Below are positions 6,263-43,407 of a stretch of 64,000 nt of DNA, piece by piece. Made by a program: the position numbers and the translations under genes. Below the pieces are notes generated by a model. It saw nothing but the letters and a program-made list of their open reading frames with translations. It had not been told where the DNA came from and made no database searches. Within the stretch, counting starts at the first letter, position 1. Each line of letters opens with the position of its first letter. The stretch spans positions 62,001-126,000 of the forward strand of contig JARLGI010000011.1 in NCBI GenBank assembly GCA_031296115.1, in the 5' to 3' direction. This DNA is from Acidobacteriota bacterium (lineage in GTDB: Bacteria > Acidobacteriota > Terriglobia > Terriglobales > Acidobacteriaceae).

Positions 6263-8626
6263 TTACTTCGTGGTACGTGCGCGTGTGATGGTAGGGGAAG
6301 TATGTTTGCTTTCTACCAGCACCCTATCATCGCGACTATAGAAAGTCAAAGAATCGCCCCATACCGTCCCGCGTTCGGCATCAAAAATGCTAGGGGATTT
6401 CCCCGTCAGGACGTAGCGCCCGTCATCCGCGGTATAAACCAGCTTGTCCCCGACCGCCCGGCGGTTGGGTTCGGTGACCACCACCTTGCCCACGGCAACC
6501 ATATAGTCGATCTTGCTGGGTCCTTCCGAGCCGGGGAGCACGGGCTTTTTCGCGGAGTTGGCCGGCTGCGGCGCCGCTCCATTGCCTTCACCCACCGCCG
6601 GCTTCAGGAACACGTCAATCAGCTTGGCATTGATGGTGCTGGCGGCGCTCTTGGCAAAGACATTGCCGGTAAAGCGGGCCCGGCGTTCCTCATCCACGTA
6701 GGTTAGCCGGTCGGAGGTGACGTCCACCGGCGAGAGCTTCCCATCCTGACCTTGCTGCATAAAGATACTGGAAACGGTTTGCGTGGGATCGGATTCGGCT
6801 ATGACGCTGCGCTTCTCGTCGTCGAAGTCAATCTTGGGGGCCCGAACCACATTCGCTGTCTGCCACAACCGGACGTTGCCGGTGTAGTGGGCCAACCCAG
6901 GCTCGCGGCGAGCGGTCATATGCTCGGCCGTCACGTGCACTGGATCAGAAGCTGCCAGCAGGGCGCCGTTTGGCTGCGGCTTCAGATCGCTGTAAGTCGT
7001 CTTGACGTCGCCGTCGGCAAACGCGTCGCCGGTCTGGCGGTTGATGCGCACCGAGGTGGCACTTGTAGTCATCCCGCCGTCAATCACCCGCGGTGAACCG
7101 GACAGGATCAATAGCTGATCGGACGGAGTGTAGGTGGCAATCTCCGCGAAGGCGGCCCGCCCGCCGGTATCCGGCTTGGCAGCGGCTTCGTGATACCGGA
7201 AATCGCCGGTCTGGACCAGTTTCTGGACGCCGCCGTCAGGGCCGAAGGAGACATCCAATTCTTGCGATGTGCTGACCTTGTCCGGCTGCCCCGGCGAGCT
7301 GGATAGGATCCGCGAATCGGACGAGCCATGCAGGGACTGCATGCGGTTCTTATCGTCAAACGTCGCGTGGAACTTGCCGGCCGTGGCAACCGTGGTTGCG
7401 TTGCCCATGTCGTCGCTGTTCTTGGTCTTGTCCGCCGTTCGGGCGGGCTTCGAGCCGGCCGGCGAGGGCAGGATGGTGATCTTCGCCGCGCCGACGGTAT
7501 CGCCGCTCTTGAGTTGGTTTCCATCCGCCAGCAGAAAATCGAGCTGGTCGGCGGCGACTTCCATCGGTTGTCCGGAGGTCCCCGACTTGCCCGGCTTCGG
7601 CTCCTGCATCATGCGCGCGTTGGCGATGAGGTGAAGCCGCGCGGGCTGGTTCTGGTCATCGAAGTCAAGAACAAACTTGTCTGCCGAGCCGTGGCTCAGG
7701 TTCGCCCCGCGCGTCTCGAACTTGGCGCCCCCCGACAGGATCGCTTGCTGCACCGAGTTATTGGGCCCCATGTTCATGTCGGCGCGCGGCCCGGTGATGT
7801 CCACGATGGACGGCCCACGGCTCTCGATATGAACGTTGCCCTCGGCAACGGCATGCTGCACGGTATTGTCCGGCAGGAAGATGAGCGTCCCCTTGTCGGC
7901 AGTGAGGGTGCGGTCCGGCTGTTCGATGCGCACATTCTGCAGCACAGCTTGCCGCGGGGCTTTCTCGATCAAGCCGCTACAGCCGGTGATGACCGCCGCC
8001 TTGTCGCCAGTGGTGACGATGTGCACGTCGGACTTCAATTGCAGCTGGTTGCTCTTCGAGTCGTAGTAGGCGCCCTTGGCGCTGCCGCTGGCCTGCGCGC
8101 TGCGAAACTGCACCAATTCGTTGGTTTCCGCGATCCCGCTTTTCTGGTTGAAGGTCAGCGAACTCGTCAACAGGTGGAGCGGGTTTTTCAATTCCGAGGG
8201 AGGGGCCTGGTCGGGCTTGGCCGGGCCCTCGGCGTTGCCCTGCAGGTCAATATGGACTTCGCCGGCAGCTTTAACGTCGCCCGTCTGAGGGTCGTAGGAA
8301 AACCGGTCGCCGTAAATCTCGTCGTAACGATCGTGATTGCGGCCATACACCACGATGTGGACGTCTTGCAGTTCGGCATGGCCGCCGGCCTTGAACTGCA
8401 CCTCTTTGGAGGCACGAATCGTGTACAGGGTGTGACCGCCCTCGGACTTGGAGAGCGAAAAACCTTCGCTGGTCTGCTGAATATCAATTCCCAGCTGCCG
8501 GGGAACATTGTGGAGGGTGGGCAGATTGCGCGAGCGGCCAAACCAGTACGAAATGCCGATACCGGCGATGAGCACCACGGCGCCGACCGCGAGCCACTTG
8601 CGTACCTGAGCTATCGACTGAAACAT
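6263..8626 (-). CDS. LptC-LptA-like fusion, periplasmic LPS bridge protein
   Basis: A 787-residue protein with a single N-terminal membrane helix (about residues 10-27, WLAVGAVVLIAGIGISYWF), then an LptC-like region (about 30-180), then several OstA/LptA-type beta-jellyroll units. These are visible as repeated lines such as GEVHIDLQGN, AEGNVHIESRG, FADGDVKTTY, YTGNVRLWQ and FTGNVFAKS. In Proteobacteria LptC (about 190 residues) and LptA (about 185) are separate. Here one large protein seems to supply the membrane anchor and a long section of the periplasmic bridge, and it sits directly upstream of lptB as lptC-lptA do. The fused identity is inferred from order and repeats. LptC- and LptA-type roles cannot be assigned domain by domain from sequence alone. 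Confidence 0.82.
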   Translation of the reverse strand: MFQSIAQVRKWLAVGAVVLIAGIGISYWFGRSRNLPTLHNVPRQLGIDIQQTSEGFSLSKSEGGHTLYTIRASKEVQFKAGGHAELQDVHIVVYGRNHDRYDEIYGDRFSYDPQTGDVKAAGEVHIDLQGNAEGPAKPDQAPPSELKNPLHLLTSSLTFNQKSGIAETNELVQFRSAQASGSAKGAYYDSKSNQLQLKSDVHIVTTGDKAAVITGCSGLIEKAPRQAVLQNVRIEQPDRTLTADKGTLIFLPDNTVQHAVAEGNVHIESRGPSIVDITGPRADMNMGPNNSVQQAILSGGAKFETRGANLSHGSADKFVLDFDDQNQPARLHLIANARMMQEPKPGKSGTSGQPMEVAADQLDFLLADGNQLKSGDTVGAAKITILPSPAGSKPARTADKTKNSDDMGNATTVATAGKFHATFDDKNRMQSLHGSSDSRILSSSPGQPDKVSTSQELDVSFGPDGGVQKLVQTGDFRYHEAAAKPDTGGRAAFAEIATYTPSDQLLILSGSPRVIDGGMTTSATSVRINRQTGDAFADGDVKTTYSDLKPQPNGALLAASDPVHVTAEHMTARREPGLAHYTGNVRLWQTANVVRAPKIDFDDEKRSVIAESDPTQTVSSIFMQQGQDGKLSPVDVTSDRLTYVDEERRARFTGNVFAKSAASTINAKLIDVFLKPAVGEGNGAAPQPANSAKKPVLPGSEGPSKIDYMVAVGKVVVTEPNRRAVGDKLVYTADDGRYVLTGKSPSIFDAERGTVWGDSLTFYSRDDRVLVESKHTSPTITRARTTK

Positions 8627-32359: not shown

Positions 32360-32401
32360 GTTAAAAGGTAGTAAACTTTGCGTTAAAAGGTAGTAAACTT
32401 T
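32360..32401. repeat. Tandem 22-base direct repeat, candidate operator
   Basis: GTTAAAAGGTAGTAAACTTT occurs twice, starting at 32360 and 32382. The twenty bases are identical and only the two-base spacer differs (GC, then CT). The 22-base period places both copies on the same helix face. It is midway between two divergent sugar-utilisation units, which suggests a regulator binding site. No regulator gene is adjacent. Confidence 0.6.
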
Positions 32402-39700: not shown

Positions 39701-40471
39701 TTATTCGTCCGAATGTGCCTCGGCGAGACGGCGCGCGATGATGGTATACACCGATGCGTTGAACGCTAATCCGATGTGCGTACCGGGAACTTCGAAATCA
39801 GTGGCAGAGTTTCCCGTCACGCAGTAATGCCAGTCCACAACCCCATCATTGCGTGTGTAGATTGCGGTTTCCAGTACCGACTTCGGCATCTTGCGGCGAA
39901 GGGAATCGAGGAACCTGCAAGTACACATGCCGGTGTAGCAGGTCGGCAGCACGGCGGGTCCATGGTCCGCAAGAATTTGCCGGCGCACGACCTCGGCGGC
40001 ACGCAGTATCGTTCTGTGGGCCACGGTGCCTCGGAAAGGGGATCCGAGCATGATCACCGACGCGATGTCGTCAGGCCTCTGATTGGCCACGGAGCGGGCG
40101 ATGATCCCGCCAAGGCTGTGGCCAATGAGATGGATCTTGCGCTCGGTCTCCATCAAGGCCTTCTCGATGCTTTCATTCAAGCGCCGCCGGATGAGCAGGT
40201 TCGGACACTCCGCATTCAGTCCGATGCCGGAAACGTAAGCTCGGTATCCCAGGCGCACCAGCCAGGAACGCAACTGGGTGAGGTAGGCGTCCGTGCCGAG
40301 AAAGCCGGGAATGAGTACAACTCCGGATCCGTCGCCCCGTGGAACGCCCAGGCCGTAATAGACAGGGGAGGCATGTAGCAGAAGAAACTCGGCGCCAAAT
40401 AAGGCTTCCTTCCAGATTGCGATGTCTGCTACCGCAGTGTCGTGCTGAAAGCCATGATTCGGCGGGGCCAT
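39701..40471 (-). CDS. Alpha/beta hydrolase, lipase-like
   Basis: A 256-residue hydrolase. Motifs: PGFLGTDAYL (oxyanion region), the nucleophile elbow GHSLGG in KIHLIGHSLGGIIARSVA, and MLGSPFRGTVAH. The acid Asp is in NDGVVDWHYC and the final His in GTHIGLAFN. This matches the class-2/PGAP1-like esterase group acting on lipid or polyester substrates. No clear signal peptide. It lies just upstream, in the leftward direction, of the barrel gene, and 296 bases from the phasin gene. A role in polyhydroxyalkanoate or lipid turnover is possible but unproven. Confidence 0.83.
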   Translation of the reverse strand: MAPPNHGFQHDTAVADIAIWKEALFGAEFLLLHASPVYYGLGVPRGDGSGVVLIPGFLGTDAYLTQLRSWLVRLGYRAYVSGIGLNAECPNLLIRRRLNESIEKALMETERKIHLIGHSLGGIIARSVANQRPDDIASVIMLGSPFRGTVAHRTILRAAEVVRRQILADHGPAVLPTCYTGMCTCRFLDSLRRKMPKSVLETAIYTRNDGVVDWHYCVTGNSATDFEVPGTHIGLAFNASVYTIIARRLAEAHSDE

Positions 40472-40661
40472 AGACGATCTGCGTTCTCCATGATGTCATC
40501 AGCATCGCGGGCGTGAGACCAAGCCTGATCCTCACCGTGAATTGGTGTCTCTCAATCGCTTGAGAGTTGCCGGGGACTGGGCGTGTCCCGCCAGGATTGG
40601 CTCGTGCACCGGAGCTTTACAAAACCTCGGCGAGTGTACACTTCCGTGGGAAATTTGCAAC

Positions 40662-40700
40662 AAAAAGAAAAACGTGCCGCTGCGTCCTGCAACGGCACGT
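40662..40700 (-). terminator. Terminator of the phasin gene
   Basis: On the minus strand an ACGTGCCG/CGGCACGT stem is followed by TTTTTCTTTTTG. It lies about 68 bases beyond the phasin stop codon. The rest of 40472-40767 shows no gene. Confidence 0.65.
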
Positions 40701-40767
40701 CAGTGCGGCACTCATCACTCCCTGGTTGAGGCTACAGACGAGTGACTCGCACCCATTTCATCCACTA

Positions 40768-41694
40768 CTAGGCGCCGGCGTGGGCGGTTTCCATCTTGAT
40801 GGTGCGGCCCCGCGGCTTCTTGCGGCGGTGCGCGGTAGTTGCCTTGCTGGGCGTGCCCCGCCGCTTGGTCACCGCATCGATCAAGTCCCTCTCGGCGTCG
40901 ACGAAGGTCTTCACTCCCTGCCGCGTAAGGTCCGGTATGGGAGCAAAGGGCGAAGCCGGAATCATGTTCAGCGTCTTTTCCGTGGCTTTCAGATGAGCGT
41001 GCATCTGCTTGGCAGCTACGTCGAGCAGTTTCTTCTGGGCGTCGACGAAGGAGTCGGTCGCTTCCTGTGCGAGCTCCACCAGTTCCGTCTTACTCATCTT
41101 CTTGTGGGCGCCATTTCCGCCCTTGGTCGCGTTGTTCGTCTCCTCGACCACCACATCCAGGAACTTCTTCTGCGTGCGGACGAAAGTATCGAAGCTGTCG
41201 CGAGCCGCTTCTACCAGGCCTTCGCCGTCATACACCTTGCCGGCCTTCACTGCTGCCAGCCAGGTGTGGGTCTGCTTGCTGGCGATTTTGAGCATCTCCA
41301 GCTGCATCTCGACAAACGTGTCATAGCCACGGCGCAGGAAGTCGGTCGCGGCTACCGCGGGCGGGAAACCGCCGACGCGTTCCTTGACACCGGTGGTGAT
41401 GATCTCGTACTCCTTCTGCGCCAGGTTCAACAGCAACTTCTGGCCTTCGATGAAGTTCGACATCCCCTCGCCGGCCAATTCCGTAAGAACGGCTACCGGG
41501 CGAAATGCGGAATCAGCCAACTGCTCCCGCACAAAGTTCATGGCAGTGGCATTCTGGCGTATCGCCAGGTCCACCAGGATTCGCTGTGTGGCAAAGAAAT
41601 TCTCGACACCCTGCTGCACCCAACCCGACAGCAAGGAAACAAAGGACGACTCCCGAGCAAGCATTGTGGGCTCGGCTTTAATTCCTCTTGGCAT
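40768..41694 (-). CDS. Six-repeat phasin-like protein
   Basis: About 308 residues from ATG 41694, chosen for a perfect GGAGG six bases upstream; a further in-frame ATG at 41724 falls inside the operator. The protein is a regular array: the anchor xxFvxxQxxLLxxAxKQ recurs at about residues 34, 81, 127, 171, 216 and 264, a period near 46. Each unit is one amphipathic helix pair of phasin type. The C-terminus is basic (HRRKKPRGRTIK). Phasins coat polyhydroxyalkanoate granules. Divergent phaR and shared TGC operators support this. No PHA synthase gene is in the window. Confidence 0.8.
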   Translation of the reverse strand: MPRGIKAEPTMLARESSFVSLLSGWVQQGVENFFATQRILVDLAIRQNATAMNFVREQLADSAFRPVAVLTELAGEGMSNFIEGQKLLLNLAQKEYEIITTGVKERVGGFPPAVAATDFLRRGYDTFVEMQLEMLKIASKQTHTWLAAVKAGKVYDGEGLVEAARDSFDTFVRTQKKFLDVVVEETNNATKGGNGAHKKMSKTELVELAQEATDSFVDAQKKLLDVAAKQMHAHLKATEKTLNMIPASPFAPIPDLTRQGVKTFVDAERDLIDAVTKRRGTPSKATTAHRRKKPRGRTIKMETAHAGA

Positions 41695-41710
41695 AATGGC
41701 CTCCGTTTTG

Positions 41711-41721
41711 CTGCATTGCAG
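41711..41721. promoter_or_regulatory. PhaR-type operator, phasin side
   Basis: CTGCATTGCAG, a perfect CTGC-N3-GCAG palindrome (GCTGC-ATT-GCAGC with one more pair), 17 bases before the phasin ATG. The 13-base string TGCATTGCAGCAT recurs exactly at 41779 on the phaR side. TGC-rich palindromes of this kind are known PhaR targets in Proteobacteria. Confidence 0.6.
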
Positions 41722-41777
41722 CATTAACTAGAATCTATTATTCACTGGTGTTCTTGTCAAGGGAAAAGTAATATTAT

Positions 41778-41788
41778 TTGCATTGCAG
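41778..41788. promoter_or_regulatory. PhaR-type operator, phaR side
   Basis: TTGCATTGCAG, one base different from the phasin-side site, 16 bases before the phaR ATG. The exact 13-base match begins at 41779, 67 bases from the first copy. It suggests autoregulation of phaR together with control of the phasin gene. Confidence 0.55.
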
Positions 41789-41804
41789 CATAGGGTTGGG
41801 ACCC

Positions 41805-42332
41805 ATGAGCACAGATACGGTCGTCATCAAGAAATACGGAAACCGCAGACTCTACGACACTTCCGGGAGCCGTTACGTCAATCTCGACGACATTGCGGCC
41901 TTGGTCCGAAATGGGAAAGACGTGCAGGTCGTCGATGCCAAAACCGGGGAAGACCTGACTCGGGTCACGCTGACACAGGTGATTGTTGAGGATGCCAAGG
42001 ACCAGCCGACAGGGTTGCCACTCGAGTTGTTGCGGCAACTCATCGTTGCTTCCGATCGCGTCGGACAGGAATTCATCATGTGGTATCTGCGGTCGGCCTT
42101 CGATACCTATCAGAAGGTGCAGAACTCGCTGCAAACCCGACTTACCGAGATGCAATCCGCAGCGCTCTCTCCGCTGCAGATGATGAAGAATTTCATTCAG
42201 AGCTCCGCGCAGGAAAACCCAAGTGGGTCGAGCGAGGAGTTGCAGGAGATGCGCAAGCGGATCGCGGAACTGGAAGCACGGCTGGCCAAACCCAAGCTGG
42301 CCAAGAAGCGAGTGCGCCGCGCGAAACCATGA
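41805..42332 (+). CDS. phaR: Polyhydroxyalkanoate synthesis regulator
   Basis: 175 residues from ATG 41805. The N-terminal PHB/PHA accumulation regulator DNA-binding domain (about 4-65) reads VIKKYGNRRLYDTSGSRYVN and LDDIAALVRNGKDVQVVDAK. A PHB_acc-type region (LTQVIVEDAKDQ ... LRQLIVASDRV) follows, then a long helix and a basic Lys/Arg tail. PhaR represses phasin genes and is released when it binds PHA granules. Here it is divergent from a phasin gene with matched operators between them, so the regulatory circuit seems complete apart from the synthase. Confidence 0.92.
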   Translation: MSTDTVVIKKYGNRRLYDTSGSRYVNLDDIAALVRNGKDVQVVDAKTGEDLTRVTLTQVIVEDAKDQPTGLPLELLRQLIVASDRVGQEFIMWYLRSAFDTYQKVQNSLQTRLTEMQSAALSPLQMMKNFIQSSAQENPSGSSEELQEMRKRIAELEARLAKPKLAKKRVRRAKP

Positions 42333-42391
42333 CGCGACTGGCTTGACATTCCAGCCTCCACAGACCACGATTTCCAGTAGGCCACACCGAT

Positions 42392-43147
42392 ATGTCGCAA
42401 GCTGCGGCCAACATCGTGCAGTTGAAACCTCGTACGCTGCAGGCGTTTGAGACTTACCTGCGCGAGGCGGAAGCCGGCATGCAGCCCACTCTCATCGGCG
42501 ACCGGCCTTTCCTGTGGTCGGACCTCGACTCCAACCGTTCCCAGCAAGTCCGCAAAGGTGAGATCGTCGCGGAATTCTGGTCGGGCCAGAAACCGCTGGA
42601 AGTCCCGAATGGCCTCATCCATGATTGGGTGGGAGCCGTGTTCATTCCCCACGCAACGGCCGAAGGCGTTCTTTCGCTGGTTCAGGACTATGACAACCAT
42701 AAGAACATCTACCAGCCCGAGGTAATGGATTCCAAACTGCTCGCCCATGACGGCAATGACTTTCAGATCTACCTGCGGCTACTGAAGAAGAAAATCATCA
42801 CCGTGGTGCTCGACACCGACCACGATGTGCATTATCAGTCTGTCGATCACACGCGCTGGTTCTGCCGCTCGTGCACGACCCGCATCGCCGAGGTCGACGA
42901 TGCCGGCACGCCGAAAGAGAAAGTCCTGGCGCCCGATACTGGCTACGGTTTCTTGTGGAGACTGTACTCCTGCTGGCGTTTTCAGGAGCGAGATGACGGT
43001 GTTTACACCGAGTGCCGTGCGATTTCTCTGACCCGCGACATACCGCTCGGGCTGGCATGGATCATCGAGCCGATCATCCGCAAACTGCCGAAAGAATCCC
43101 TGATTAATACTCTGAAAGCGACGCGTGAAGCGCTAACTGCCGCGTAG
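42392..43147 (+). CDS. Conserved hypothetical protein, possible SRPBCC/START fold
   Basis: A 251-residue soluble protein. The order of elements (FWSGQKPLEVPNGLIHDWVGAVF, an alternating strand region, then VYTECRAISLTRDIP and a final long helix IRKLPKESLINTLKATREAL) resembles START/SRPBCC lipid-binding folds, where a C-terminal helix caps a beta grip. I recognise no catalytic motif. Acidobacterial homologues exist as I recall, without assigned function. It follows phaR by 60 bases in the same direction and could be in its transcript. Confidence 0.72.
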   Translation: MSQAAANIVQLKPRTLQAFETYLREAEAGMQPTLIGDRPFLWSDLDSNRSQQVRKGEIVAEFWSGQKPLEVPNGLIHDWVGAVFIPHATAEGVLSLVQDYDNHKNIYQPEVMDSKLLAHDGNDFQIYLRLLKKKIITVVLDTDHDVHYQSVDHTRWFCRSCTTRIAEVDDAGTPKEKVLAPDTGYGFLWRLYSCWRFQERDDGVYTECRAISLTRDIPLGLAWIIEPIIRKLPKESLINTLKATREALTAA

Positions 43148-43179
43148 CGGAATGCGAGAGCCCGGTCCGGATTGGCGCG

Positions 43180-43407
43180 CTACCCTGCGCTTGGTCCCTT
43201 GCTGGGATCGTAAATCCGGTAAACAATCCGCACTGTCTGGCGCCGTTCCATTTGCTGGCACACGTGGCGAAGTTCCAGCTCTTTCAGGTGGGAAGGGTTG
43301 AAGGCGCGGGCGATCGTAAGGAAACAGTGGTTGCAAATGGAATCGATAGTTCCATCCTGGTTGGGGCGACGAGCGTAGTTGTTTGCTGAATTCGACAGCT
43401 GGTTCAT
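43180..43407 (-). CDS. Small conserved cysteine-containing protein
   Basis: About 75 residues from ATG 43407 (the frame is open to 43437). It carries GTIDSICNHCFLTIA, a CxxC in a setting that recurs in short acidobacterial proteins, and later ELRHVCQQMERR. The two cysteine groups suggest a small metal-binding or redox fold. Function unknown. It converges with the preceding gene. Confidence 0.55.
   Translation of the reverse strand: MNQLSNSANNYARRPNQDGTIDSICNHCFLTIARAFNPSHLKELELRHVCQQMERRQTVRIVYRIYDPSKGPSAG

Follow-up and report, generated by a model that had tools for sequence, protein, structure and literature searches.

Within the window, by which we mean the whole 64-kb stretch of DNA analyzed here, a gene for a long phasin-like protein and a gene for a PhaR-family regulator diverge from an intergenic region that carries a promoter-like site and two palindromes. 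The locus comprises the following features, in order of position.

39701..40471, minus strand: alpha/beta hydrolase with the Ser nucleophile motif GHSLGG (PGAP1, Palm_thioest and Abhydrolase_1 matches)
40671..40701, minus strand: terminator-like hairpin directly 3' of the phasin gene, with 13 pairs in its stem and a T run behind it
40768..41694, minus strand: long phasin-like gene, 308 aa, with sub-cut-off Phasin_2 match, homology to phaC-linked phasins, and repeats
41700..41704, minus strand: Shine-Dalgarno GGAGG of the phasin; CGGAGG is kept in most type-B relatives (defined below)
41709..41723, no strand: putative operator 1, a perfect palindrome (17-bp site 41708-41724) where the phasin promoter has its predicted +1, immediately 5' of the Shine-Dalgarno
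41732..41760, minus strand: predicted sigma70-type phasin promoter, TTGACA (41760-41755), 17-bp spacer, TAGATT (41737-41732)
41775..41791, no strand: putative operator 2, TATTTGCATTGCAGCAT, 13 bp from the phaR ATG and on the upstream side of the phasin -35 box
41805..42332, plus strand: phaR, 175-aa PF07879 regulator (E 6.3e-29)

Genes of the locus

An initial annotation described the two central genes as a divergent phasin/phaR pair. For the regulator this agrees with the PF07879 DNA-binding domain (100.3 bits, cut-off 25; E 6e-29), and no other PF07879 protein occurs in the genome. Because its match to the NCBIfam equivalog TIGR01848 (101.2 bits) falls under the cut-off of 109.45, we file it as a PhaR-family protein rather than as a confirmed PHA repressor. 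The phasin assignment stands in part: the protein is under the cut-off of Phasin_2 (PF09361; E 0.0011, 19.6 bits against 24.9) but matches the phasins encoded beside phaC in G233 and G080 with E about 1e-5 (7e-6 and 1.7e-5). Six helix motifs, FvxxQkxLLDlAxkQ, lie at residues 33, 81, 127, 171, 216 and 264, and the 43-48-residue repeat unit is present in six copies versus four in the phaC-linked phasins. A structure model of the protein is all-helical, at low confidence (pLDDT 47), and was judged too uncertain to serve as a query for similar folds.

We considered PF05233 (PHB_acc) as a discriminator between PHA-linked and lipid-linked PhaRs and rejected it, as it is above cut-off in neither locus type. 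It is strong in two alphaproteobacterial PhaRs; the window PhaR gave no match at E≤10, and of seven further acidobacterial PhaRs, drawn from types A and B, only that of L178 matched, below the cut-off (E 0.014). Domain content is thus uninformative on the ligand, since PF05233 exceeded its cut-off in no acidobacterial PhaR tested, A or B.

By its motif, the hydrolase at 39701-40471 is predicted to be lipase-like rather than a PHA synthase, and its homologues adjoin WS/DGAT in relatives. PHA synthases have Cys, not Ser, in the nucleophile box. On the other side of the locus, directly after phaR, a 251-aa gene (42392-43147, plus strand) matched no Pfam family, even with the threshold relaxed to E 10; it occupies the position that a convergent WS/DGAT gene has in G257 and other relatives.

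The site pair and the phasin promoter

The 64-kb window contains just two exact copies of the sequence TGCATTGCAGCAT (41712-41724 and 41779-41791, both on the plus strand), whose starts are 67 bp apart, as the initial annotation had stated. The first copy was also correctly placed within a perfect CTGC-N3-GCAG (CTGCATTGCAG, 41711-41721), itself part of a perfect 7-1-7 palindrome, TGCTGCA-T-TGCAGCA (TGCTGCATTGCAGCA, 41709-41723). The second reads TTGCATTGCAG and therefore lacks the first C of CTGC-N3-GCAG. Site 1 alone matches TGCTGCANTGCAGCA exactly in the 3.75 Mb genome. The proposed likeness to proteobacterial PhaR targets is borne out: the sites fit both the CTGCN3GCAG given for Rhodobacter (PMC12542648) and the Ralstonia consensus YTKNTGCRNYGCANMAR (PMC12849132), a proteobacterial yardstick that operator 1 matches at 16/17 positions and operator 2 at 15/17.

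On window evidence alone the site pair is weak, because 7-1-7 palindromes occur there at about chance frequency (6 versus 6.25 in shuffles). CTGC-N3-GCAG, which had been put forward as a genome-scan pattern, proved too loose for that use, its one-mismatch count (57 found versus 54 expected) being not above chance. A 13-mer pair less than 100 bp apart recurs at one further place in the window, which is a 22-bp tandem duplication. This duplication, GTTAAAAGGTAGTAAACTTTGC at 32360-32401, is perfect.

Across the 2.7 kb scanned (40600-43300), the phasin promoter is the sole promoter-like site, and none could be assigned to phaR. Its predicted transcription start coincides with site 1, followed by GGAGG and then the ATG at 41694, and the terminator-like hairpin after the gene suggests a single-gene transcript. 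Each 17-bp site lies 13 bases from a start codon, site 1 from that of the phasin (41708 to 41694, minus strand) and site 2 from that of phaR (41791 to 41805, plus strand). The earlier idea of one copy per gene is nevertheless not supported, as the pair flanks the phasin promoter rather than providing one site for each gene: we read it as a property of that promoter because two phasin genes remote from phaR, the one in G202 and the second one in G300, still have a site on either side of the -35 box, with a spacing of 68 bp. Site 2 may additionally serve phaR.

Conservation of the sites in relatives

The decisive support for these predicted sites is their conservation in relatives. We gathered PhaR loci across the phylum and from named genomes, including Acidobacteriaceae bog_169, Ca. 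Sulfotelmatobacter, Terriglobia, Bryobacteraceae and others, to which the source acidobacterium is close. Type A loci have the order phaC-phaE-phasin-operator-phaR (G080, G233, G188, L180, L182, L184 and L185). Type B loci, including that of the window, have a long phasin with two sites, phaR and the Ser-lipase; type-B relatives add WS/DGAT, AdhE, GMC oxidoreductase and ABC1 kinase beside phaR-phasin. In 12 type-B loci, chosen for an exact site and therefore excluding the other two, G202 and L174, the 17-mer TTGCTGCA-N-TGCAGCAT is invariant at 16/17 positions, all but the center base; the two excluded loci carry close variants of the site beside phaR. TTGACA is likewise invariant in the 12 relatives, whereas most other intergenic DNA drifts. 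In relatives, a TTGACA-N17-TAnnnT promoter has operator 1 at its predicted +1, and in most of them a degenerate equivalent of operator 2 is found 57-70 bp from it.

The initial annotation had held that absence of the motif before the phasin genes of relatives would count against it. We found the reverse: in a genome-wide phasin search of 12 genomes, all 16 distinct phasin genes, copies remote from phaR among them, have a site of at least 15/17 to the Ralstonia consensus within ~290 bp, a score that random 290-bp stretches reach in 5%. In family f1, the exact operator is present in six of seven PhaR-positive genomes versus none of 25 PhaR-negative ones (Fisher p 8e-6, from counts that are non-independent because the genomes are related). 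A phylum scan with one mismatch allowed was abandoned, since chance explains most of its matches and the controls gave counts of similar size; we therefore used exact sites alone at that scale.

Taken with their fit to the known consensus, these observations make it very probable that the two palindromes are PhaR operators.

Loose operator patterns, run across the source genome, returned matches at background level and were rejected as a guide to targets. Besides the two sites of the window and an intergenic match on contig C89 with no clear gene adjoining, the matches that we inspected fell within reading frames or could not plausibly act in a promoter. No second convincing operator emerged in this genome. 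The initial annotation had expected such a scan to reveal a PHA regulon including phaC, which it did not, and with matches at background level we claim no wider regulon for the source genome.

PHA synthase and WS/DGAT across the phylum

The window locus contains no phaC, the lipase-like Ser hydrolase standing there instead, and neither PF07167 (PhaC_N) nor TIGR01836 has a match in the source genome. As that assembly (G000) is 93.6% complete, a phaC gene could have been lost from it. The same two models found no match in G257, G115, G070 and G202 either, and one model, TIGR01836, found none in the type-B genomes G298-G301 and G305. WS/DGAT is present in all ten of these genomes, the source genome included; the WS/DGAT gene of the source genome lies on a separate contig, C82, and has no operator.

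PhaR was found in 63 of the 297 genomes of our phylum sample, including 40 of the 41 that are positive for WS/DGAT (p 6e-32; related genomes, so that the counts are non-independent) and 22 of the 23 positive for PhaC_N, a set that G211 joins by TIGR01836. Fourteen PhaR-positive genomes carry both PhaC and WS/DGAT, and about 14 have no clear PHA synthase or WS/DGAT (G005, G019, G020, G053, G057, G064, G071, G075 and others). Among the PhaR-positive genomes of f1, five have WS/DGAT without PhaC and two have PhaC without WS/DGAT. The nearest relative, G297 (bog_169), holds a full phaR-phasin-phaE-phaC locus of type A as well as a type-B locus. The former (L291, G297:C7:1-9000) has its own phaR, a short phasin and one operator, ATGTTGCACTGCAGCAT; it is possibly mis-binned, as its contig is only 9.9 kb.

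In the PhaR tree, loci that have the TGC operator, A and B alike, form one supported clade (98/94), with A as one group inside it. A second clade mixes WS/DGAT-linked (f10, f20, f70) with PhaC-linked (f31, f76) regulators (loci L123-L127, L066, L069 and L079), and no conserved TGC operator was found near phaR in these families.

Discussion

From the computed sites, their position and conservation, the promoter, the protein family and the gene associations, we infer a model of binding, repression and sequestration at this locus. A PhaR-family dimer would bind the two TGC-N3-GCA palindromes bracketing the -35 box and the start point and block RNA polymerase at the phasin promoter, and it would probably damp phaR as well. 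As storage inclusions form, PhaR would be drawn to their surface and the sites vacated, so that the coat protein would then be made in step with new inclusion surface. The most likely inclusion in this lineage is a droplet of wax ester or triacylglycerol (TAG) produced by WS/DGAT, given that the searches yielded no PHA synthase and that this type of locus is associated with WS/DGAT genes. We hold with moderate confidence that the locus is a PhaR autorepressor/phasin switch that reads wax-ester/TAG droplets rather than PHA; the identity of the inclusion taken by itself, which we derive from gene content, we regard as slightly on the probable side.

The arrangement resembles the PhaR–phaP1 system of Ralstonia eutropha/Cupriavidus necator (PMC12849132, PMC3570403) in its PF07879 regulator, its TGC-N3-GCA palindromes and the layout of its sigma70 phasin promoter; at Ralstonia phaP1, PhaR sites are described just upstream of -35 and around the transcription start (PMC12849132). 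A similar layout is given for S. meliloti phaP1/2 (PMC12542648). In contrast to Ralstonia, no phaC was found in the source genome or in nine further type-B genomes that we searched (the exception being G297), the window PhaR has no detected PF05233, the phasin is long with six repeats, and phasin and phaR are divergent and may have one site in common. PhaR/AniA of Rhodobacter, Sinorhizobium and Herbaspirillum, as presented in PMC12542648 and PMC3206438, likewise recognize CTGCN3GCAG or TGNTGCN3GCAA-type sites, have phasins as prime targets and are autoregulated; those systems belong to another phylum and have wide regulons, whereas in the source genome only the phasin/phaR pair is convincing.

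For lipid droplets, the nearest working model is MLDSR/MLDS of Rhodococcus jostii, in which neutral-lipid droplets sequester MLDSR from the coat-protein promoter, and MLDSR acts through two palindromic motifs to control this coat protein as well as its own expression (PMC5504291). The parallel is functional only: PMC5504291 describes MLDSR with an HTH domain of the xenobiotic-response-element type, the box that it binds, GNT(T/A)GCTNNTGCTANC, is another one, and MLDS is not described in that paper as a phasin.

An ordinary PHA system, in which PHB granules titrate a PhaR that represses both the phasin and its own expression, with phaC missing from the draft or the synthase unrecognized, seems to us unlikely. 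The PhaR-phasin pair and operator are like those of Proteobacteria, the nearest relative has its full phaC locus, and the completeness of the source assembly leaves room for a lost gene. However, G257, G115, G070 and G202, which are 99-100% complete, lack both PhaC models yet have WS/DGAT, the phaC locus of G297 is equipped with a separate phaR and a short phasin, and the hydrolase adjoining the window phasin has a Ser box in place of the PHA-synthase Cys.

A single PhaR that reads both PHA granules and wax-ester/TAG droplets through a common operator code is more doubtful still. It would accommodate the 14 PhaR-positive genomes with both enzymes, and G297, where a type-A and a type-B locus coexist and each phasin is preceded by the operator; but several type-B genomes have no detectable PhaC, and G297 has two PhaRs, its phaC contig being short enough for mis-binning. 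A role of the sites as targets of some other regulator or as RNA hairpins in the 5' leader, with PhaR a mere neighbor, is very improbable even though the predicted leader includes operator 1, which could fold into a hairpin of 6 bp, because site presence tracks PhaR in f1, the consensus matches the footprinted PhaR sites reported in PMC12849132 and PMC3206438, the sites accompany phasin genes remote from phaR, and the same core recurs upstream of -35, outside the phasin-promoter transcript, a position that led us to set the hairpin reading of operator 1 aside.

Returning to the reading that we prefer, a droplet-responsive PhaR, we give about equal weight to and against the broader idea that a PhaR-phasin switch was transferred between PHA granules and wax-ester/TAG droplets in Acidobacteriota, possibly more than once, with regulator clade and operator code held constant while the synthase swaps between phaC and WS/DGAT. 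Such a switch would be the phasin-type counterpart of the actinobacterial MLDS/MLDSR droplet-titration circuit. PhaR is taken as a PHA marker and sensor. If our reading is true, PhaR would read storage-inclusion surfaces in general, a phaR/phaP annotation would be no proof of PHA production, and the window would supply a candidate regulator and coat protein for neutral-lipid storage in Acidobacteriota, a subject termed unexplored in PMC10351704. The literature that we surveyed, as search matches and selected passages, contains no apparent link between PhaR and WS/DGAT.

Other sites came to light in the relatives. In G202 (locus L059), a gene for an acyl-CoA dehydrogenase that is divergent from phaR has a PhaR-like operator, GCGCTGCATTGCAGCAT, in front of it at about 8390-8480, and in L173 a PhaR-like site, ATCTTGCACTGCAGCAA, at 7586 lies 65 bp before the lipase-like hydrolase gene. 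G261 contains many dispersed copies of TTGCTGCATTGCTGCAT, some of them 8 bp apart, which probably represent a repeat family unrelated to PhaR.
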